NCBI GenBank assembly: GCA_021809525.1
Contig: JAKAYU010000013.1
Coordinates: 1 to 33,450 of the forward strand
Length of the DNA stretch: 33,450 bases
Direction: 5' to 3'
DNA from: Pseudomonadota bacterium
Lineage (GTDB): Bacteria > Pseudomonadota > Gammaproteobacteria > Steroidobacterales > Steroidobacteraceae
In this document: piece by piece, positions 3 through 13,759 of the stretch
Position numbering within the stretch: the stretch's first letter is position 1
How the letters are laid out: every line of letters begins with the position of its first letter
Program-made: the position numbers and the translations under genes
Notes under the pieces: model-generated
The model's database searches: none
Told to the model about the DNA's origin: nothing
The model's input: only the letters and a program-made list of their open reading frames with translations

Positions 3-329
3 GATCTCATCGGCCAGCCGTATGGGTTGCCGGGCAGCTACCGGCTGCCGTTCGCGACCTGCTGGACGATTGCGGATGAGTTGGGCGTGCGCGCGGGTCG
101 GGCGAAGACCCTGAAGCTCCTGCTCGGCAGATCCTGGGGCGGCCCGGTCGCCTCGCAACAGCTAAACCCCGAGACCGATGCCCGCATCGGCGGCGGGGGT
201 GGCTTCGCGACCGCTGCGGGGGATCTCGGCGCGACGATCGGTCGGCTCTGCGGCCGGCCACGCCCCGCGGGTCCGCCGCGCCTGCTTCTCCAGTCAACCC
301 ATGGCAATAAGGGCATGCCCGATGAATAG
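3..329 (+). CDS. 3' end of an unidentified CDS entering from the left edge (partial)
   Basis: Frame 3 is open from the window edge (DLIGQPYGLPGSYRLPFATCWTIADELG...) to TAG at 327-329, with GC-rich third positions typical of coding DNA here. No family recognised. Confidence 0.4.
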   Translation, partial: DLIGQPYGLPGSYRLPFATCWTIADELGVRAGRAKTLKLLLGRSWGGPVASQQLNPETDARIGGGGGFATAAGDLGATIGRLCGRPRPAGPPRLLLQSTHGNKGMPDE

Positions 330-1929
330 TCGTCGCACAAAGTTTCACCGCGTTTGCGGGCTGATGGTCGGTTTCCTCGTCGTGCTCGGCGCTTTCGCGA
401 CCGCCAGTGCCCGCACGCTGCCGGTAGAGCACATCGTGGTCGATGCGCACACAGCGGGCCAGCCCTTCCCGCACTTCTGGGACCACATGTTCGGTTCGGG
501 ACGCGCCGTGCTCGTGCTGCGGGCGAACTATCAGCACGATCTCGCTCTGATGAAGGGCGCGACCGGCATCCAGTTCGTGCGCTTTCATGGATTGCTGGAT
601 CGAGGCGTGGGGCTGACCGGCAGGCACACGGCGGCGTTTTACAACCGGTATGCCGCCGGGCCGCGCGGCCACGCGGCAGGGCCACCGTACAATTTTTCCT
701 ATGTGGACCAGATCATGGACGCACTGCTGGCGCACGGAGTGCGCCCGTACGTGGAGCTCGACTTCATGCCGCCAGCCCTGGCGCGCGATCCGGAGATGAC
801 GCAGTCGTTCTGGTATCACCCGGTCGTTTCCCCACCACGCAGCTACGCGCAATGGGACGACATGATCAAGGCGCTGGCGCGCAACTTCATCCAGCAGTAC
901 GGGATCAATGAAGTCGCGACGTGGTATTTCGAGGTCTGGAACGAGCCGAACCTTGATTTCTGGGGCGGCGTGCCGAAGCAGAGCACCTACTTCACGCTGT
1001 ACGATCACACCGCCCGCGCCCTCAAGAGCGTGAATGAACGTCTGCGCGTCGGGGGTCCAGCGACCGCGCAAGCCGCATGGGTGACGGCCTTTCTGCGCCA
1101 CGATGCCAAGCACCACGTGCCGGTTGATTTCGTGAGCACCCACGTCTACGGCAACGATACGGCCATGAATGTCTTCGGCCGCAAGGTAAAGGTCTCGCGG
1201 CGCACCATGGTGTGCCGCGCGGTGCGCAAGGTTCACCGGCAGATCGCACGCTCGCCGTATCCGCATCTGCCGCTGGTCCTGTCGGAATTCAACGCCAGTT
1301 ACAGCAATGAACCGGATGTGACCGACACGCCCTACATGGGTCCGTGGATTGCGAGCACCATTCGCCAGTGCGACGGCCTGGTGCACATGATGAGCTACTG
1401 GACCTTCTCGGATGTGTTCGAGGAGCAGGGCGTGGTGCGCAAGCCCTTCTATGGCGGCTTCGGACTGATCGCCGAGGACAATATCCGCAAGCCCGCGTTC
1501 GATGCGTTCGAGCTGCTGCATCGGCTGGGACACGTGCGCCTGCTGCCGCAGGTGCGATCGGCGCTCATCACCCGGCGGCGTGACGGCGCGCTCGTCCTGG
1601 CGCTGTGGAATTACGCGCCGCCGGATGGCCGGGGACCGAAGTACACGCCCCCGCCCGCGCACCGCTCGCATCGGGTCTTCGAGATCGCCGTGCACGAGTT
1701 CCCGCCTGAGGCGCACGGGTTGCTGTGGCGGGTCGATGACCAGCACAGCGACGTGCTGCGCGCCTTCAATGCCATGGGACGTCCCCGCTGGCCGACGCGC
1801 GAGCAGATCGCGGTGCTCAAGGCCGCGGGGCGCCTCGCGCCCGCGCGCCCCGTGCAGCTGCGCGATGGCCGCATCACGGTGCGGGTGCCGCAGCACGGGC
1901 TCGCACTGCTGCTGCTTGAGCGCCACTGA
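322..1929 (+). CDS. GH39-like glycoside hydrolase (beta-xylosidase-type), secreted
   Basis: ORF 178..1929; ATG at 322 (MNSRRTKFHRVCGLMVGFLVVLGAFATASA) gives a signal peptide. Motifs WYFEVWNEPNLDFW (acid/base E in NEP) and LVLSEFNAS (nucleophile E) are typical of clan GH-A/GH39. Confidence 0.85.
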   Translation: MNSRRTKFHRVCGLMVGFLVVLGAFATASARTLPVEHIVVDAHTAGQPFPHFWDHMFGSGRAVLVLRANYQHDLALMKGATGIQFVRFHGLLDRGVGLTGRHTAAFYNRYAAGPRGHAAGPPYNFSYVDQIMDALLAHGVRPYVELDFMPPALARDPEMTQSFWYHPVVSPPRSYAQWDDMIKALARNFIQQYGINEVATWYFEVWNEPNLDFWGGVPKQSTYFTLYDHTARALKSVNERLRVGGPATAQAAWVTAFLRHDAKHHVPVDFVSTHVYGNDTAMNVFGRKVKVSRRTMVCRAVRKVHRQIARSPYPHLPLVLSEFNASYSNEPDVTDTPYMGPWIASTIRQCDGLVHMMSYWTFSDVFEEQGVVRKPFYGGFGLIAEDNIRKPAFDAFELLHRLGHVRLLPQVRSALITRRRDGALVLALWNYAPPDGRGPKYTPPPAHRSHRVFEIAVHEFPPEAHGLLWRVDDQHSDVLRAFNAMGRPRWPTREQIAVLKAAGRLAPARPVQLRDGRITVRVPQHGLALLLLERH

Positions 1930-2246
1930 GCGGGCGGCAGCAACCGGCCGGGTACCGTGCGGCGTCGAGCGCGGCCGCTGATCGCGCGCGAGATGGATGA
2001 CCGGCAGGACGGGTGTGCCGGAGTCGAAGCGGTCCGGGAGGGCGATGGCGACGATCGTAGCACTGGCGGGGCCACCCGGAGTCGAGAGACAATGGCCCGG
2101 CACGCGGAAATGGTGCGGCAAAATCCGGCCGCGAGACGCCAAAATGGTGTTCTCGCAGCGGAACTTCGCGCGGGCGTACCACAGCGCTTCGGCGGGTAAA
2201 CTTCAGTACGACGTCGCGCCGTTGCGCGTGAGGTGTGCGGGCTGCC

Positions 2247-2258
2247 GTAAACGTTTTC
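2247..2258. promoter_or_regulatory. Candidate LacI-family operator (GTAAACGTTTTC)
   Basis: Near-palindrome GTAAAC|GTTTTC (one mismatch) with a central CG, in the style of LacI/GalR operators, ~23 bp upstream of the lacI-type start. Confidence 0.45.
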
Positions 2259-2280
2259 CTCACAGCCATAGGATGTACAG

Positions 2281-3342
2281 TTGGCCATCAGCATTCGGGA
2301 TGTCGCGAAGCGCGCCGGAATTTCCACAGCGACCGTATCGAGGGTCATGAACGGCTCCGATGGGGTCACGGAGTCAGCGCGCGCGGCGGTTCTGCGGGCG
2401 GCGCGCGAACTGAATTACGTCCCACATGCCGCCGCGCGCGCGCTCATCACCGGCCGCACGCATACCATCGCGGTGCTGCTGCCTGACATGCATGGAGCGT
2501 TCTTTTCCGAATTGATCAGGGAGCTGGATCAGTGCGCCCACGCGCACGGACAGAGTCTGCTGGTGGCGAGCTTGCATGGGCGTCTTGCGGAGGCGCCGAA
2601 AGTTTTCGCGCTCATTCACGGACAGGTGGACGGGGTGATTCTCATGGCGCCGTTCGTCGACGCGGAACCCCGTCTCGCGCAATTGCCGTTTACGGTGCCG
2701 ACCGTGCTGCTCAATGCGCCGGGCCCCGTGAACGATGCGCCGTCGATCACCATAGACAATGCAGGAGGCGCTGCGCAGGTGGCCCGGCATTTCGCCGCGC
2801 TCGGCTACAAGGAGGTCGTGCATATTGCGGGACCTGCGGACAACTACGACGCGGCCGAGCGCGCCCGGGGGTTCCACGCCGCCGCGCGCAGACTCGGCAT
2901 GAGCGTGCAGCGCGATATCAGGGGCAATTACTCGGAGGAAGCCGGACGCGAGGCGGGCGCGGAACTGGCAAAGCGTCTGCGCAGGCCGCGGGCGGTCTTC
3001 GCGGCCAACGACAACATGGCCGTCGGCTGTCTCGAGGCCCTGGCCTCGGCTGGCATTGCCGTGCCCAATGAGATTGCGGTGGCCGGCTTCGACGATATTC
3101 CGATCGCGCGCTTCACCACGCCGCCCCTCACGACAGTGCGGCCGCCGGTGGCGCGACAGGGTCTCGAGGCCTTCGAATGGCTGGTGGCAGCCATCAAGCG
3201 CAAGAGCCCCACGCGGGTGCTTTCGAGCCGGCCGACGCAGCCGCTGCCGACCACCTTGATCGTCCGGGGCTCGACCGACCCGACGGCGCTCCCCTCGAGT
3301 GCGCGTGCGGCGTCGTCCCGGACCCGGCGGCCGCGAGGATAG
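2281..3342 (+). CDS. LacI family transcriptional regulator
   Basis: TTG start; N-terminal HTH ISIRDVAKRAGISTATVSRVMNGSDGVTESARAAVLRAARELNYVPHAAARAL and a periplasmic-binding-like core (VAGFDDIPIARFTTPPLTTVRPP). Confidence 0.95.
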   Translation: MAISIRDVAKRAGISTATVSRVMNGSDGVTESARAAVLRAARELNYVPHAAARALITGRTHTIAVLLPDMHGAFFSELIRELDQCAHAHGQSLLVASLHGRLAEAPKVFALIHGQVDGVILMAPFVDAEPRLAQLPFTVPTVLLNAPGPVNDAPSITIDNAGGAAQVARHFAALGYKEVVHIAGPADNYDAAERARGFHAAARRLGMSVQRDIRGNYSEEAGREAGAELAKRLRRPRAVFAANDNMAVGCLEALASAGIAVPNEIAVAGFDDIPIARFTTPPLTTVRPPVARQGLEAFEWLVAAIKRKSPTRVLSSRPTQPLPTTLIVRGSTDPTALPSSARAASSRTRRPRG

Positions 3343-3537
3343 AATCTGCAGGCGCGGCTGGCGGCGTGCCGAATCCATAGACCGCGTCGCAGTGGGGCGG
3401 CATCGGGCGAACGAGTTCTCTGTGCAGCAACTGAACCAACAGAGCGCATCGACGGTGAGTACCGGGTCGCATGAGCGCATATGCCTCGGGGGGACGCCCC
3501 GTACCGGGGCAGCGCGGCCCACTCCGGTGGGCACGGC

Positions 3538-4827
3538 GTGAGCCGCGTGACGAGGGTGCCGGTTCTGCGCAACGCGCTGACTCTGGCCGCGGCCGCCCTC
3601 GCCTGCGCGGGCTGTGCCCGCTCGCCCTGCGGGTTGAACGTCTGGGCCGTCGGCGTCGAGGCCAGTGCGTTGCAACGCATGGTCCCGGGATTCGAGCGGG
3701 AGCATCCGGGAACACGGGTTTGCGTGGCAAATCTCGCCTGGAGTTCCGCCGAGGCGCGCCTGCTCTCGGCGGTTGCGGCGGGCGATCCGCCCGATGTAGC
3801 CCAGGTTGGCGATACGGATCTGTCGACCCTGGTGACGCTCCATGCGATCGTTGCGCAGCGCCCGGTGGCTACGGATTTCTTCACCGAGGCACTGGCGGTC
3901 ACGCGCTTCCACGGGCGCTATTACGGCACGCCGTGGTATGTCGATACCCGAGTGCTCTTCTATCTTCCGGGAATCTTGCATCGCGCCGGCTATCGCCGGC
4001 CGGCACGCACGTGGCGCAAGTGGCTGCAGCAGCTCGCCGCCGTGCGCCGGGTTCTAAAGCCCGGTCAATATCCTCTGCTCGCCCCGATCAACGAATATGA
4101 ATTCCTCGAGGTACTGGCGTTGCAGCAGCCGGTGCCAGTGCTGCGGGACGGGGATCGCTATGGCAATTTCGCAAGTCCCACGTTTCGTGCCGCGTTGAGA
4201 TTCTACAAGAGCCTGTTCGCGCAACGGCTTGCCCCGCGCATCACCGACCGCCAACTAATCAATCTGTGGTGGCAGATGGCGCGCGGGGATTTCGTCTTCT
4301 ACGTGTCCGGACCGTGGAACATTGGCGAATTCCGCCGCTTCCTGCCGCCCCAGGATCAGCACCTGTGGATGACCGCCCCAATGCCGGGGCCGCGCGGCCC
4401 CGGCCGCTCGCTGCTCGATGGCTCGGACCTGGTGATCTTCAGGCGCTCACCCCGTCAGCGCATGGCGCGCGCATTCGTCCGCTACATGCTGGCGAACGCC
4501 CAACAGGTGCGCCTGTTCGAACTGACGGGAGATCTGCCTGCACGGCGCGCACCGTGGATCTTGCCGCCGCTTGCCGCCGACCGAAAGCTACGCGCGTTCC
4601 GCGTGCAGCTCGGGCGGGTCCGGCCCTTCCAGAAAATCCCCGAGTGGGGCGAGATCATGCACGGCATGCGCCGCATGGCCGAGCAGGTGGTGATCGGCGG
4701 GCTGCCCGTTGACGCCGCCACCACTCAGCTCGACCGCCGCGTGAACTACTGGCTCGCCGAGCGGCGCGCGCTGCTCGCACGCGGGGACAATGCAGCCGGT
4801 GCGCACGCGGCGCAGAAGCGACCATGA
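3538..4827 (+). CDS. Sugar ABC transporter substrate-binding lipoprotein (family 1)
   Basis: ORF 3481..4827; probable GTG start at 3538; lipobox LACAGC; family 1 features (AAGDPPDVAQVGDTDLSTLV; FVFYVSGPWNIGEFRR; GGSDLVIF-type region). Followed by permease genes. Confidence 0.88.
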   Translation: MSRVTRVPVLRNALTLAAAALACAGCARSPCGLNVWAVGVEASALQRMVPGFEREHPGTRVCVANLAWSSAEARLLSAVAAGDPPDVAQVGDTDLSTLVTLHAIVAQRPVATDFFTEALAVTRFHGRYYGTPWYVDTRVLFYLPGILHRAGYRRPARTWRKWLQQLAAVRRVLKPGQYPLLAPINEYEFLEVLALQQPVPVLRDGDRYGNFASPTFRAALRFYKSLFAQRLAPRITDRQLINLWWQMARGDFVFYVSGPWNIGEFRRFLPPQDQHLWMTAPMPGPRGPGRSLLDGSDLVIFRRSPRQRMARAFVRYMLANAQQVRLFELTGDLPARRAPWILPPLAADRKLRAFRVQLGRVRPFQKIPEWGEIMHGMRRMAEQVVIGGLPVDAATTQLDRRVNYWLAERRALLARGDNAAGAHAAQKRP

Positions 4828-5699
4828 AAGCCTCGACCGCGCTTCTATTCGTCATTCCGGCCTTGGCGATGATTCTGCTCTTTGTCTTCATCCCGCTGAT
4901 CGGCGTGCTCGGCCTCAGCCTTACGGACTTCAACGTCTATGCACTCGCCAATAGCGCCAATCTGCACTTCGTCGGCGTCGCGAACTTCACGCATCTGCTG
5001 CACGACCATGCCGCGTGGCAGGGCGTCGAGACCACGATGACCGTCGTGCTCGTCGGTGTGCCGGCCACCCTCGGGCTGTCGCTGGTCTGCGCATTGATGA
5101 TCGAGTCAATCGGTGCGCGGTGGCGTGGTCTGTTTCGAACCGCTTTTTTCCTGCCCGTCGTCTGTTCCACGGTCGCGGTGGCAATCGGCTGGCGCTACCT
5201 GCTCAATACGCGCTACGGGCTCGTGAACCGGTTGCTCGCCGCGGCGCATTTGCCGACGCCCAACTGGCTGGGTACACCCGGGTTGGCATTGCTCGCGGTG
5301 ACGGTGGTCGTGGTCTGGAAGGGTTTCGGGTACGGCATGATCATCGTCGCGGCGGCACGCCGCGAAATCCCCGATGAGCTTTACGACATCGCGCGCATCG
5401 AAGGGGCGGGCATGACGCAGCAGCTGCTGCGCATCACGATGCCGATGCTGGCCCCGACGCTCGGCCTGCTCGCGCTTCTGGACGCCGCGGGCTACTGGCA
5501 GCTGTTCGCCGAGCCCTACGTCCTGACCCAGGGTGGACCGATGGGCAGCACGATGAGTCTTCTGCTTCTGATGTACGATCGTGGCTTTCGCTGGTGGCGT
5601 TGGGGCGTGGCGAGCGCGCTGGCGATGGTGTTGACGGTCATCATGTGGCTGTTCGCGTGGCTGCAGCGCCATACGAGAGCGGCATGGCGAGGAGATTGA
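4824..5699 (+). CDS. Sugar ABC transporter permease (MalF/UgpA-type)
   Basis: ATGA overlap with the upstream gene; multiple TM segments; EAA-like loop (IPDELYDIARIEGAGMTQQLLRITMPMLAPT). Confidence 0.92.
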   Translation: MKASTALLFVIPALAMILLFVFIPLIGVLGLSLTDFNVYALANSANLHFVGVANFTHLLHDHAAWQGVETTMTVVLVGVPATLGLSLVCALMIESIGARWRGLFRTAFFLPVVCSTVAVAIGWRYLLNTRYGLVNRLLAAAHLPTPNWLGTPGLALLAVTVVVVWKGFGYGMIIVAAARREIPDELYDIARIEGAGMTQQLLRITMPMLAPTLGLLALLDAAGYWQLFAEPYVLTQGGPMGSTMSLLLLMYDRGFRWWRWGVASALAMVLTVIMWLFAWLQRHTRAAWRGD

Positions 5700-5700
5700 G

Positions 5701-6528
5701 GTGAGCGGCAGGGGCATGGTGCTGCGCGCATCGAGGTATGCGGTGCTCATCGTGATGGCGCTCGCCACCTTGTTCCCGCTGCTGTGGGTGACCTCCATTG
5801 CCTTCATGCGCTCGCCCGAGCGGTTTGCCGGCACGCCACCGTTGTGGCCCGATCATCCGACACTCGTGAACATGGTGAATATCGTTCATCAGCAGAGGAT
5901 CGGCCATTACTTCCTCAATTCGCTGATTGTCGCGGCGGCCACCACACCGTTATCGGTTCTGGTGGCGGGGCTGGCCGGCTATGCGCTGGCGCAAGCAAAG
6001 TTTCGCGGCCACCGCCTGGTGTCGTGGGTGGTGATGTTCGCGGTCCTGGTGCCCAATCAGGCGCTAGTGCTTCCTCTGTTCGAGATGTTCAGCGCGGTGC
6101 ATCTGGTCAATCACTACGCGGCCCTAGTGCTGCCTGCCGCGGCGAATGCGGTGAGTATCGTGCTCATTCAGGCGTATGCGCGCGCCATTCCCAAGGACAT
6201 TCTCGATGCCGCACGCATCGACGGCGCGAGCGAATGGCGCACATTTTTCTCCGTGGTGGTGCCGCTGATGGCCCCGATGCTGGCAGCGGTCGCGGTCCTC
6301 ACCTTCGTGGTGAGCTGGAACGATTTCATGTGGCCGATGATCGCCATGCAGAAGGTGGATATGCAGACCCTGCCGGTGGCATTGGCGTCGATCGACCGGG
6401 AGCACTATCAGAATATCGGTCTGATGGCCGCCGGCGCGACGGTGGCGATCTTGCCGATGATGTTGGTATTTCTGGCATCGCAACGCTACTATTTGCGCGC
6501 CGTCTCAGCCGGCAGCGTGACGGACTGA
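5701..6528 (+). CDS. Sugar ABC transporter permease (MalG/UgpE-type)
   Basis: GTG start; EAA loop IPKDILDAARIDGASEWRTFFSVVVPLMAPMLAAVAVLTFVVSWNDFMWPM. Confidence 0.93.
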   Translation: MSGRGMVLRASRYAVLIVMALATLFPLLWVTSIAFMRSPERFAGTPPLWPDHPTLVNMVNIVHQQRIGHYFLNSLIVAAATTPLSVLVAGLAGYALAQAKFRGHRLVSWVVMFAVLVPNQALVLPLFEMFSAVHLVNHYAALVLPAAANAVSIVLIQAYARAIPKDILDAARIDGASEWRTFFSVVVPLMAPMLAAVAVLTFVVSWNDFMWPMIAMQKVDMQTLPVALASIDREHYQNIGLMAAGATVAILPMMLVFLASQRYYLRAVSAGSVTD

Positions 6529-6529
6529 T

Positions 6530-7564
6530 ATGGCGCGCCTCGAACTGCAACGGGTGACGAAGAGTCTCGCCAACGGCCAGCGCGTCCTGCGGGACATCGA
6601 TTGCGCAGTCAACGATGGCGAGCTGATCTCGATGGTCGGGCCCTCCGGGTGCGGGAAATCGACGCTGCTGCGTTGCATCGCGGGACTCGAGGCAATCACC
6701 TCGGGCGAGATCCGCATCGGCGAGCAGCGGGTCAATGACCTGCCGCCGCGGCAGCGCAACGTCGCCATGGTTTTCCAGAATCATGCGCTCTATCCGCACA
6801 TGACGGTCTACCAGAATCTTGCCTTCGGTCTGCGCGTGCGGCACGTGGCAAGAGCGGCGGTGGACGCGCGCGTGCGCCGCACTGCCGCCCGGCTCGGTCT
6901 CGATGCGCTGCTCGGACGCTATCCACGCGAGCTTTCCGGCGGCCAACGGCAGCGGACCGCACTCGGGCGTGCGATGCTGCGCGAGCCCGGGGTGTTCCTC
7001 CTCGACGAGCCGCTCTCGAGTCTCGACATCCCGTTGCGGGCGGAGATGCGCCGCGAGCTCTCGGCTCTGCACCAGTCTCTCGGCACCACCATGGTGTACG
7101 TGACCCACGATCAATCGGAGGCCCTCTCGCTCGGTCAGCGCGTCGTGGTGCTCGCCGATGGTGCGATCGAGCAGATCGACACTCCGGATGGCATCTATCA
7201 GGCGCCGAGGAATCGCTTCGTGGCCGGTTTCGTCGGCTGGCCGCCGATGAATTTCCTGAGTGAGGACTGGTTGCACGATACCGGTCTCGACACGCAGTGC
7301 ATCGAGTACGGTATTCGGCCGGAGCGGTTGCGGCTGCGGCCGGGTGCGCGCGGTGATTTCAGCATTATCGGCAAGCTCGAGCGCATCGAGTCCTTCGGCG
7401 GAGAATGGCAGGTGGAGATCAGCCGTCAGGGCTCGCGGGTGATTGCGCGCGTGCCGCCGGAGACGAAGCTGCAACGGGGGGCCGAACTGCGTTTGTGGTT
7501 CCGGCGCGAGGACCTCTACGCGTTCGATCGGGCGACCGGCAGCCGTATGCAAGCGTGGCGGTGA
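6530..7564 (+). CDS. Sugar ABC transporter ATP-binding protein (MalK/UgpC-type)
   Basis: Walker A GPSGCGKST, signature LSGGQRQRTALGRA, Walker B VFLLDEPLSSLD, and a C-terminal TOBE-like regulatory region (FVGWPPMNFL). Confidence 0.95.
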   Translation: MARLELQRVTKSLANGQRVLRDIDCAVNDGELISMVGPSGCGKSTLLRCIAGLEAITSGEIRIGEQRVNDLPPRQRNVAMVFQNHALYPHMTVYQNLAFGLRVRHVARAAVDARVRRTAARLGLDALLGRYPRELSGGQRQRTALGRAMLREPGVFLLDEPLSSLDIPLRAEMRRELSALHQSLGTTMVYVTHDQSEALSLGQRVVVLADGAIEQIDTPDGIYQAPRNRFVAGFVGWPPMNFLSEDWLHDTGLDTQCIEYGIRPERLRLRPGARGDFSIIGKLERIESFGGEWQVEISRQGSRVIARVPPETKLQRGAELRLWFRREDLYAFDRATGSRMQAWR

Positions 7565-7681
7565 GTGGCACGGCCCGGCAGGCACTCGCGCCGTGGCACG
7601 GGCTGAGGTGAGGGCGGGCGCATGCGGGGTGGGTGCGCCTATCCAATGCTGTGCGCGCGAGTGGTTTTTTTGGGGGGAGGC

Positions 7682-9754
7682 ATGAGATCGACGCTTCGCG
7701 GTGTCGGCGCGGCGGTGGTGCCGCTGCTCGGTCTGGTGCTGGCCGGGTGCGGTGGGGGTGGCGGGCCATCGGCGCCGGGCGGCGGGTCGGGTGTGACGAG
7801 TCTGACACTCGCGGTGGACCCTGCAAGTGTCAGTGTCATCGCCGGGGGCTCCGCGACATTCACGCTCGAGACGAGTCCCGCGGCCTACAGTCCTGTGACC
7901 GTGGCCTCGGTCAACCCACCGGCGGGTCTTCAGGTGGCAACCGAGGCCGGGGCGAGCGCGGGATCGGGCACGCAGACGGAAATTATTACTGCGGCGACCA
8001 CGACGGCAGCGGGGACGTATACGCTTGCCCTCGAGGGGAGCGAGCGCGGGCTTACCGGTACCGTCGAGGTGACCGTGCAAGTGCAGGCGGCCGCGAATGG
8101 AACGCTCCAGATTCAGGCATCACCGGGCGTGTTGTCACAGCCGGCGGGCGGGTCATCGACATTTGCGGTGGACGTCAGCCCGGCGGTATCGAGCCCGGTC
8201 ACGCTGAGCTTGGTGAATGCGCCAGCGGGCATGCAGGTGAGCACCAACGCCGGCTCAGTCGCGAATTCCGGAGCGCAGAATGTGACGGTCAGCACGACGA
8301 CTACGGTCGCAGTGGGTACGTACACGCTCGAACTCCAAGGCGACGGTTCCGGTCAGACGGCAACGACACCGTTGACGGTTCAGGTGCAGCCGGCCCTGCC
8401 GGCGTCGTTCGTGAAAATCGAGCAGGAGACCTTCAACTACTTCTGGAATACGACCAACCCCAGCAATGGACTCGCGCCCGATCACTATTCGACCGCCGAT
8501 GGACCCTCGCCCTACGCCAGCATTGCCGCGACCGGATTCGCACTCAGCGCCTACCCCATCGGTGTCGAGAATGGCTGGGTGTCGCACGCGCAAGCAGCGC
8601 AACGGGTACTGACGACGTTGGGTTTCCTTTACAACGCCCCACAGGGAACGGCAGCTAGCGGGGACAGCGGCGATCAAGGGTTCTTCTATCATTTTCTCAA
8701 CCTCGATACCGGCGTGCGCTATGGCACCAGTACGGGGCTGTCGTCGATGGACAATGCCCTGCTGATGGCTGGAGTGCTGTTCGCGGCCAGCTATTTCAAT
8801 GACGGCAGCAGCACCGATAATCAGATCCAGAGCCTCGCGAGCGCCGTCTTCGACCGCGTCGACTGGCTCTGGATGGCGCACAGCGACCCGCCGCTCATCA
8901 ATCTAGACTGGACCCCGGAAGCGGGGTTCTCACCGGACAGTTGGCAGGGCTACAACGAGGCGATGATTCTTTATATCGAGGCGCTGGGCTCCAAAACCTA
9001 CCCGCTGCCGGCGAGTGCCTGGAGTGCCTGGACGGCAACCTATCCGCAATTCTGGGGCAGCTATTATGGACGGGAACAGCTGAGTTTTGGACCGCTGTTC
9101 GGATCGCAGTATTCCGAGGCATGGATCGATTTCCGTGGCATTCAGGATGCCTTCATGCAAAGCAACGGCATCGACTACTTCATCAACAGCCGTCGCGCGA
9201 GCGAGTCGCAGCAAGCCTACGCTGAGGCCAATCCCGGCGGCTGGAGCGGCTATGGGGCCAACCTCTGGGGTCTCACGGCATGCGACGGTCCCGGCGTCTT
9301 CACGGTCACGGACGCCAACGGTCAGATGCGCGATTTCCAGGGTTACCATGCGCGCGGCGCGGGATTGGAGTATGCCTACGACGATGGCACCATCGCGCCC
9401 ACAGCCGCGCTCAGTTCGATTGTGTTCGCGCCCGCTATCGTCATTCCGACCCTCGAGGCGATACAAGCGCAGTACGGGAACTACATGCTCGGTCAATACG
9501 GCTTTCACGATGCCTTCAATCCCAGTTTCCAGGATACGGCAGTGACCCCCGCTTCCGGCAGCGTGGTAGCCGGCGTGGGCTGGTTCGACAATCAATATCT
9601 CGGCATCGATCAGGGTCCAATTCTGCTGATGCTCGAGAACTACCGCAGTGGCCTGGTGTGGAGCGTGATGCGTGCAAACACCGTCATCCGCGCCGGTCTG
9701 CAGCGTGCCGGGTTCACGGGCGGGTGGCTCTCGGGAGCCCCGGCCCTGCAGTAA
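7682..9754 (+). CDS. Lipoprotein with two Ig-like repeats and a C-terminal glycoamylase/GH144-like domain
   Basis: ORF 7622..9754; ATG at 7682 after a GGGGGGAGG RBS; lipobox LVLAGC then a Gly-rich linker; two similar ~95-aa repeats; C-terminal domain with WSGYGANLWGLTACDGP and WFDNQYLGIDQGPILLMLENYRSGLVW motifs of PF10091/COG5368. Confidence 0.85.
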   Translation: MRSTLRGVGAAVVPLLGLVLAGCGGGGGPSAPGGGSGVTSLTLAVDPASVSVIAGGSATFTLETSPAAYSPVTVASVNPPAGLQVATEAGASAGSGTQTEIITAATTTAAGTYTLALEGSERGLTGTVEVTVQVQAAANGTLQIQASPGVLSQPAGGSSTFAVDVSPAVSSPVTLSLVNAPAGMQVSTNAGSVANSGAQNVTVSTTTTVAVGTYTLELQGDGSGQTATTPLTVQVQPALPASFVKIEQETFNYFWNTTNPSNGLAPDHYSTADGPSPYASIAATGFALSAYPIGVENGWVSHAQAAQRVLTTLGFLYNAPQGTAASGDSGDQGFFYHFLNLDTGVRYGTSTGLSSMDNALLMAGVLFAASYFNDGSSTDNQIQSLASAVFDRVDWLWMAHSDPPLINLDWTPEAGFSPDSWQGYNEAMILYIEALGSKTYPLPASAWSAWTATYPQFWGSYYGREQLSFGPLFGSQYSEAWIDFRGIQDAFMQSNGIDYFINSRRASESQQAYAEANPGGWSGYGANLWGLTACDGPGVFTVTDANGQMRDFQGYHARGAGLEYAYDDGTIAPTAALSSIVFAPAIVIPTLEAIQAQYGNYMLGQYGFHDAFNPSFQDTAVTPASGSVVAGVGWFDNQYLGIDQGPILLMLENYRSGLVWSVMRANTVIRAGLQRAGFTGGWLSGAPALQ
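7796..8389 (+). repeat. Tandem Ig-like domain repeat (two copies) within the GH144-like gene
   Basis: Copy 1 (TSLTLAVDPASVSVIAGGSATFTLETSPAAYSPVTVASVNPPAGLQV...TVQVQ, ~7796-8086) and copy 2 (GTLQIQASPGVLSQPAGGSSTFAVDVSPAVSSPVTLSLVNAPAGMQV...TVQVQ, ~8099-8389) align visibly at protein level. Confidence 0.75.
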
Positions 9755-10174
9755 ACCCGGCGGGTGTTCGAGCTTCGGCCTGCAGATGCTGCCTCACCGT
9801 CGGTGCGGTTGCAGGATCGGCTGTGCCCCAGTGCCCGAACCGGTCTCGGCGCATCAGTGATTCTGTCGGCAGATTTCACGTTGCGCCGTTCGGGCACCGT
9901 GCGGAGCGGGAAAGACCCATCGGCGCGGCGGCTGAACGATTGCCGGCCGCTTCAGGGCGAGTGCCGTGGCGAAGGCTGTCTTGGGCGCATGAGAGCCCGG
10001 CGCCGGCGGCAGGGACCGGGATCCGGCGATTCGACCGCGTCCGCCGAGGGCCCGCCGGGAACGAGATCCTCGGTCATCGATCCACGGCGACGGGCGGACG
10101 CACTCCCGATCCGCCCGCAGGCGCTATGCTGTGTGCGTGAGCCGCGAATCCGCAGCGAACCCAGGGTGATCATC

Positions 10175-10765
10175 ATGCGAACTGTTGCACTGCTCGGCAT
10201 GAGCGCCGTTCTCGCCGTAATTACGGCGGTATCTTTGGCTGCCACCCCGACTCCCCGTCCGATGGCGCTCTGGCGGACGGTGCAGGTGTTGCGCACAGCC
10301 GACGCGCGGATGTTCGAGAGCGCGGCATATCAGCCGGGCTCGCGCGCCGTGGATGCCTACACCATCGATCTGGCCAACCCATCCGCCAACGATGCCATCC
10401 GCAAGGCCGGCGGTATCACAAACGTGCGGCGTTATCCCAACGGCGCGCTTCTCGTGAAGGAGAACTTCAACCTGCATCGGCGAGCGACCGGTGTCACGGC
10501 CATGCTCAAGCTTTCCGGCTATGATCCCGCCGACCGCAACTGGGTCATGGCCGCGTACACTCCTGCGGGCAAGGTCATCGCCTACGGCAAAGTCCCCGCC
10601 TGCATCGCCTGTCACGCGATGGTGTCGACACAGGACTTCGTGTTCGCACCGCCGCCGAAGCAGCTGCTGTCCGTTGCCATCTGGAAGGCGTTCTTCCCGA
10701 AGCAGACTATTACATCTGCCTATGAGCAGCTGCTGCGCTGGCATCCCGCTGCCGTCGTGAGGTAG
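10175..10765 (+). CDS. Cytochrome P460-like periplasmic haem protein
   Basis: ORF 9764..10765; ATG at 10175 gives a signal peptide (MRTVALLGMSAVLAVITAVSLAA); one c-type haem motif CIACH near the C-terminus; P460-style segments (GALLVKENF, WVMAAYTPAGK). Confidence 0.75.
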   Translation: MRTVALLGMSAVLAVITAVSLAATPTPRPMALWRTVQVLRTADARMFESAAYQPGSRAVDAYTIDLANPSANDAIRKAGGITNVRRYPNGALLVKENFNLHRRATGVTAMLKLSGYDPADRNWVMAAYTPAGKVIAYGKVPACIACHAMVSTQDFVFAPPPKQLLSVAIWKAFFPKQTITSAYEQLLRWHPAAVVR

Positions 10766-10887: not shown

Positions 10888-12183
10888 TCAGCCGCGTCGT
10901 TCGCGAGCGATAGCGCGGTGGCCGATGTCCCGCCGGTACTGCATGTCAGGCCAATGGATCGCCCCGACCAGCGCGTACGCGGTCTCGGCAGCCGTGGAAA
11001 CGGACTCACCGAGTCCTACTGCGCACAGCACCCGTCCGCCGTCGGTGAGAACCCGGCCGCCCTCCAGGCGCGTGCCGGCATGGAACACCTTGCCGCGCCC
11101 GGCGGCGAGCGCGGCCGCCTGCTCGAGCCCCTCGATGCGATCGCCCTTGCGCACCGTGTCAGGATATCCGCGCGCGGCGAGTACCACGCCGAGCGCGGCT
11201 CTGAGGTCCCATTGCGCGCTCACCGTATCGAGGCGGCCCGCGAGCGCCGCCTCGCACAGCACCGCCAAGTCCGAGCGCAGCCGGCTCAACACCGGCTGAG
11301 TTTCCGGGTCGCCGAGACGGCAGTTGAATTCGAGTACGTTCGGCGTGCCGTCCTCGGCGACCATCAGCCCGGCGTAGAGAAAACCCGTGTAGGGCGTGCC
11401 GTCGGCCGCGAGTCCGGCGATCGTGGGCTCGATGACCTCCCGCATGATGCGCGCGTGCAGCTCGGGCGTGACGCGCGGCGCCGGCGAGTACGCGCCCATG
11501 CCTCCGGTATTCGGGCCCCGGTCGCCGTCGTCGCGGCGCTTGTGATCCTGCGAAGTGGCGAGCGGCAGCACGTGCGCGCCGTCGGCCATGACGATGAAGC
11601 TGACTTCCTCGCCGCGCAGAAACTCCTCGACCACCACTTGCTCGCCAGCGTGGCCGAACCGGCCGGCGAACATCTCGCCGACCGCCGCGCGCGCCTCCTC
11701 GAGCGTCTCGGCGATGATCACGCCCTTGCCGGCGGCAAGCCCGCTCGCCTTGATCACGAGCGGCAGCGGCTGACGCTCGAGCCAGGATGGATCGTAGTCC
11801 TCGCGTGTGAAGGTGCGGGAGCGGGCCGTGGGAATGCCGTGGCGCTCGAGAAAGTCCTTGGTGAAGGCCTTGGAGCCCTCCAGGCGCGCAGCCTGCCGGC
11901 GCGGGCCGAAGCAGGCGAGGCCGGCTGCCTCGAAGGCGTCGACCACACCGGCCACGAGCGGCCCCTCGGGCCCGACGATGGTGAGCTGCACACCCTCGCG
12001 CCGGGCGAGATCGACGAGCGCCGGGATGTCCTCAGCGCCGACGGGCACGTTGCGGCACTTCGGCTCGAGGGCTGTGCCGGCGTTGCCGGGCGCGACCAGT
12101 ACTTCCTGCACGCGCGCGGAGGCGGCGCATCTCCAGGCGAGCGCGTGTTCCCGGCCACCCGCGCCGATGACGAGGACCTTCAT
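10888..12183 (-). CDS. purD: Phosphoribosylamine--glycine ligase
   Basis: [18 protein letters not shown]... [14 protein letters not shown]... [20 protein letters not shown]-grasp GARS. Confidence 0.97.
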
Positions 12184-12190
12184 CGGTGCG

Positions 12191-13759
<1,569 letters not shown>

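Follow-up and report, generated by a model that had tools for sequence, protein, structure and literature searches.

A LacI-associated gene set in a Steroidobacteraceae genome joins GH39 and GH144 glycosidases to a sugar ABC importer and is a likely beta-1,2-glucan locus

The window analysed here, a stretch of 33,450 nucleotides (contig JAKAYU010000013.1, assembly GCA_021809525.1) from a bacterium of the Steroidobacteraceae, Gammaproteobacteria, carries near its start genes for a glycosidase of glycoside hydrolase (GH) family 39, a LacI-family repressor, a CUT1-type ATP-binding cassette (ABC) importer (3538-7564) and a GH144 lipoprotein, all of them on the plus strand (Table 1). An earlier sequence-only reading had placed these genes at the same positions and had seen in them a candidate glycan-utilisation locus of same-strand genes with short or overlapping junctions, acting either on beta-1,2-glucan, which is a sugar polymer made by bacteria, and its sophorose oligomers, or on a mixed xylose-containing glycan. 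Such a locus is borne out by the coordinates, the Pfam matches and the recurring gene order, and the hidden Markov model (HMM) search places the two enzymes in GH39 and in PF10091/GH144, as had been proposed. The genes of the sugar-binding protein (SBP) and the MalF-type permease share an ATGA overlap at 4824-4827, MalF ends at 5699 and the GTG of MalG follows at 5701, while MalG ends at 6528 and the ATG of MalK stands at 6530. The best NCBIfam model for the lacI product is RbsR, with a score under its cut-off. Overlooked in the earlier gene set were the end of a GH125-like gene (3-329), the operator and, in relatives, the genes for a TonB-dependent receptor and a halogenase-like protein lying upstream.

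Table 1. Genes and predicted regulatory site of the locus, in window positions.
Feature	Position	Strand	Evidence
GH125-like glycosidase, C-terminal end	3..329	+	full-length-family HMM match 8.4e-30, alignment
GH39 glycosidase	322..1929	+	PF01229 3.6e-93; acid/base E208, nucleophile E322
Predicted LacI-family operator CGTAAACGTTTTCC, 5' of lacI	2246..2259	.	core AAACGTTT, motif score 21.3 of 28.3
LacI-family repressor, TTG start	2281..3342	+	PF00356 4.6e-16; Peripla_BP_3 PF13377 1.1e-34
CUT1 importer SBP, Lin1841-like, GTG start	3538..4827	+	SBP_bac_1 PF01547 4.9e-22
MalF/UgpA-type permease	4824..5699	+	BPD_transp_1 PF00528 2.1e-16
MalG/UgpE-type permease, GTG start 5701	5701..6528	+	BPD_transp_1 PF00528 2.2e-19
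UgpC/MalK-type ATPase with TOBE domain, ATG 6530	6530..7564	+	PF00005 3.6e-34; PF08402 (TOBE_2)
GH144 beta-1,2-glucanase (by homology), predicted lipoprotein	7682..9754	+	PF10091 'Glycoamylase' 3.4e-78

The nearest solved protein to the GH144 enzyme is XcSGL of Xanthomonas campestris (XCC2207, 8xul; 1.4e-156), to which its catalytic domain is 53.3% identical over 443 residues, and the endo-beta-1,2-glucanase 5gzh also matches (5.9e-38). XcSGL is a GH144 enzyme active only on beta-1,2-glucan, and its E239, F286 and Y367 are the residues that define the clan (PMC12102758). E, F and Y are kept in the window protein at the aligned sites (the PDB chain of 8xul has Q at 239, which we take to be a mutant), while an Asp stands at the site aligned with the proposed base E142 of CpSGL. 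From its sequence, the window PF10091 enzyme is a member of GH144, and we infer from the close homologue XcSGL that it hydrolyses beta-1,2-glucan. A placement in GH192, one of the newly created families, was dropped because XCC2207 has been assigned to GH144 (PMC12102758). The window protein extends further at its N terminus than XcSGL, with some 230 residues preceding the catalytic domain, and carries a lipobox there; a start at 7682 is likelier than one at 7622 (MRSTLRGVGAAVVPLLGLVLAGC, lipobox LAGC).

An SBP, two MalF/MalG-type permeases and a TOBE-domain ATPase in one gene run make up the full set of a CUT1 carbohydrate importer, in keeping with the dedicated sugar importer of the earlier reading. 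The ATPase scores 406 bits against the NCBIfam model UgpC (cut-off 432), and for the SBP gene an alternative upstream ATG at 3481 is possible. The closest solved chain to the SBP is 3uor (5.9e-90), presumably from Xanthomonas citri and titled 'ABC transporter sugar binding protein', and the sole further solved chain matching at 1e-20 or better is Lin1841 (5ysb; 7.2e-37, 31% identity). The ligand of 3uor may itself be a sophorooligosaccharide or other beta-1,2-glucan fragment. Lin1841 binds Sop3-5 (PMC12369401), and this likeness supports, without proving, that the importer takes up sophorooligosaccharides.

The GH39 protein, which matches PF01229 with 313 bits against a cut-off of 26 and on visual inspection shows a Sec-type signal sequence, belongs to a clade that a long branch with full support separates in the tree from the beta-xylosidases GsXynB1 and TsXynB. 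We aligned 120 members of this clade, spanning Gammaproteobacteria, Acidobacteriota and one member of Planctomycetota, with two solved beta-xylosidases, positions in XacXynB (Xac) being derived by an offset of two, as fixed at the catalytic Glu. E208 and E322 align to E160 and E278 of GsXynB1 (Gs) and are invariant (120/120), and the window enzyme shares its fold, these two residues and the greater part of the minus-1 subsite with GsXynB1, TsXynB (Ts), XacXynB and CcXynB2. The substrate-contact residues of XacXynB have been listed, and its Lys166 affects substrate affinity (PMC7242879). In comparison with the contact set of XacXynB and GsXynB1 most sites match in the window protein, but Trp occupies the Phe118 site and the residue at the Lys166 site is missing. 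Both changes are typical of the clade: the one-residue deletion in the plus-subsite loop (Gs 164 / Xac Lys166) occurs in all 120 members and the Trp at the minus-1 site (Gs/Ts Tyr116, Xac Phe118) in 117. Judged from the alignment, the changed contact residues lower the likelihood of xylosidase activity in the window GH39. The Sphingobium sp. RC1 enzyme SpGH39-1 mainly cleaves beta-1,2-linked glucose off beta1-tomatine, and two other GH39 enzymes cleave beta-1,2-xylosidic bonds of ginsenosides (PMC10653915). By its description, SpGH39-1 thus removes the kind of glucose residue that we propose for the window GH39, although it acts on a steroidal glycoalkaloid and lies within a saponin gene set (PMC10653915).

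A generic palindrome search for the LacI operator gave no clear site by itself, whereas the conserved AAACGTTT core did. The window holds a single such core (2249-2256), 25 bases 5' of the LacI start, where 0.05 would be expected. Among 35 cores in 2.34 Mb of related loci, 26 coincide with the 5' end of a gene of the cluster, this being GH39, LacI, the TonB-dependent receptor, GH144 or one in the MalK region (the last in L069, L070 and L081, at the start of GH1), while simulated sequence gave 12-22 cores overall and 2-4 at such 5' ends. The site is also found 5' of isolated GH39 genes in relatives. A consensus near TGTAAACGTTTACA fits a predicted LacI-family operator, and its sharing argues for co-regulation of the cluster genes.

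The neighbourhood is conserved, in keeping with the sequence-only reading. In two sister loci (L039 and L040) the order is TonB-dependent receptor, tryptophan-halogenase-like gene, GH39b, GH39a, LacI, SBP, MalF, MalG, MalK and GH144, the first two genes covering L039 91-4728 and L040 15985-19900, and in L039 purD comes after the set. Other genomes of the genus have GH144-GH39 pairs without an importer, or sets with a GH1 or a full-length GH125-like gene. Of 85 related GH39 genes with at least 5 kb of flank on each side, 32 have GH144 no more than 10 kb away. By our own estimate, which assumes a genome of 3-5 Mb with one or two GH144 genes, chance would give about 1%; the relatives are not independent. 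Taking the 80 named loci with whatever flank they have, GH144 is present in 29 and within 1 kb in 20. Together with the order recurring in sister genomes, the linkage in 32 of 85 makes the arrangement more than chance. Linkage to GH144 turns up in many places on the GH39 tree, among Pseudomonadota (Gammaproteobacteria) as well as Acidobacteriota. We also scanned the direct neighbours of 69 GH39 genes in two batches, with loci recognised as belonging to the window's genus excluded, and PF10091 was the commonest enzyme (17 of 130 neighbour genes), followed among glycosidases by GH31 (5 of 130) and by GH1 and GH13 (three each). An endo-glucanase linked to an importer and a putative exo-enzyme, conserved across species, is what marks a beta-1,2-glucan locus, and this combination is found here. 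Apart from these sets, a GH31-type gene followed by GH39, with a TonB-dependent receptor upstream, was seen in L098, L099, L104, L105 and L110; an uncharacterised six-hairpin glycosidase and a major facilitator superfamily transporter follow GH39 in all of these but L105, and a AAACGTTT core lies 5' of GH39 in all but L110.

Loci of this type are known from Listeria innocua (lin1839-lin1841) and Streptomyces griseus (SGR_2422-2427), both of them beta-1,2-glucan loci (PMC12369401). Common to these and the window is an ABC importer with an SBP related to Lin1841, set beside glycosidases that act, or in the window would act, on sophorooligosaccharides, and the endo-glucanase of the Streptomyces locus, GH193, is of the same superfamily as GH144. 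The window differs in that the endo-enzyme is GH144 and its partner GH39 instead of GH3, GH1 or GH94, and it has in addition the LacI operator and, in its relatives, the TonB-dependent receptor and halogenase-like gene. The earlier reading had not recognised the pairing as a described pathway. This holds for the GH39 partner, since we found no description of a GH39-GH144 pairing in the literature (subscription journals being poorly covered), but not for the GH144 step and the importer, which have assayed relatives in XcSGL and Lin1841. Within the literature searched, the novelty therefore lies in GH39 as the partner and in how widely it is linked to GH144, not in the type of locus.

From these results we consider it likely that the locus handles beta-1,2-glucan. 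These same two assayed relatives support this half of the earlier substrate guess, while the mixed xylose-containing glycan is less supported. In the mechanism that we propose the GH144 lipoprotein would cut beta-1,2-glucan endolytically to sophorooligosaccharides, as has been shown for XcSGL; SBP, MalF, MalG and MalK would capture and import these; and the secreted GH39 would take terminal glucose off beta-1,2-linked oligosaccharides, possibly filling the role of the GH3 and GH1 beta-glucosidases of the Listeria and Streptomyces loci. The LacI repressor would bind the TGTAAACGTTTACA-like operator and be released by a breakdown product. Taken as a whole, the account that we favour with moderate confidence is one in which LacI controls a locus that scavenges beta-1,2-glucan, the GH39 step being the conjectural one. 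That GH39 is the beta-1,2-glucosidase of the locus is plausible but tentative, and with the same reserve we suggest that the clade may largely consist of unrecognised exo-glycosidases specific for beta-1,2-glucan and partnering GH144. The genome searched (94% complete) gave no GH1 or GH94, which leaves no such alternative enzyme for the glucosidase step.

Several observations weigh against this assignment of GH39. Four GH3 genes elsewhere in the genome could provide the glucosidase. GH39 and GH1 coexist in L069, L077 and L103, so GH39 is not simply a replacement of GH1 (the GH1 of variant loci matches many beta-glucosidases, which does not narrow its specificity), and GH39 relatives of Rhodanobacter/Dyella sit in GH13/GH31 loci. 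The remaining listed minus-1 residues of the clade are identical to those of GH39 beta-xylosidases, all close solved relatives of the window enzyme are named beta-xylosidases, and so are the folds closest to its predicted model, which adds nothing beyond the sequence result. Moreover, the genome has a second GH39 (C37; L047 8740-10335), 78% identical to the first, that adjoins a XylB-like dehydrogenase and aldehyde dehydrogenases, and in a relative (L043) the region matching it has a GguC-family gene; this pentose-oxidation setting favours xylose as the substrate of that copy. The genome's second GH144 gene (C256; L048 8895-10682) has a GH10 xylanase open reading frame (ORF) about 1 kb off (11779-12888). 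GH39 could accordingly be an ordinary beta-xylosidase, in a locus for a xylose-bearing glycan or for two substrates with GH144 and the importer serving the glucan part. We regard this as unlikely in view of the clade-specific changes at two substrate-contact sites, of the operator, which is present at the window set while no site was found near the second GH39, and of the neighbour scan, where GH144 is the commonest enzyme and no xylanase, GH43 or other xylan family appears among the 25 commonest neighbour families listed per batch, although lists of that length may miss a xylanase that occurs only singly. A GH43 neighbour does occur in L118.

Two other explanations can be given less weight than scavenging of foreign beta-1,2-glucan. 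The genome has OpgG/OpgD-type genes (three MdoG matches, up to 578 bits), so the periplasm in question may also be a site of beta-1,2-glucan synthesis and the locus could recycle the cell's own osmoregulated periplasmic glucans; this is improbable, since the TonB-dependent receptor that heads the sister loci points to uptake from outside and GH144, a predicted lipoprotein, is much extended at its N terminus. That GH39 is a bystander of the GH144/ABC locus, retained by chance or through common regulation alone, is very improbable, for although L044 and L045 have the ABC genes and GH39 with no GH144 within reach and GH39 is alone in L043 and L047, GH39 and GH144 are found together in several arrangements and in two phyla, and the operator precedes even isolated GH39 genes.

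Symbiosis, virulence and adaptation to osmotic conditions in bacteria all involve beta-1,2-glucans, and new enzymes that break these polymers down continue to be discovered. GH39 is a family with no earlier link to this polymer in the literature searched, found here beside GH144 in two phyla. If it is indeed the exo-enzyme, the label 'beta-xylosidase' on GH39 genes of many soil and peat bacteria would be wrong.

At the edges of the locus, the GH125-like gene runs off the contig start and its stop overlaps the GH39 ATG by 8 bases. This gene is full-length in L041, L055, L056, L058 and L062 and decayed in the sister genomes L036 and L039; the window end reads SQQ where the five full-length proteins have SE(Q/G), and the window copy may also be decaying, as far as the contig edge lets it be read. 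Fold matches of its AlphaFold model (GH94 and others) were set aside as the model is poor (predicted local distance difference test score 49). After the locus come purD, purH and other housekeeping genes on the minus strand, named from reading the proteins. Between GH144 and purD lies an ORF (9764-10765) that resembles cytochrome P460 and has the haem motif CIACH, and none was called at the matching place in the sister loci L037, L039 and L040.

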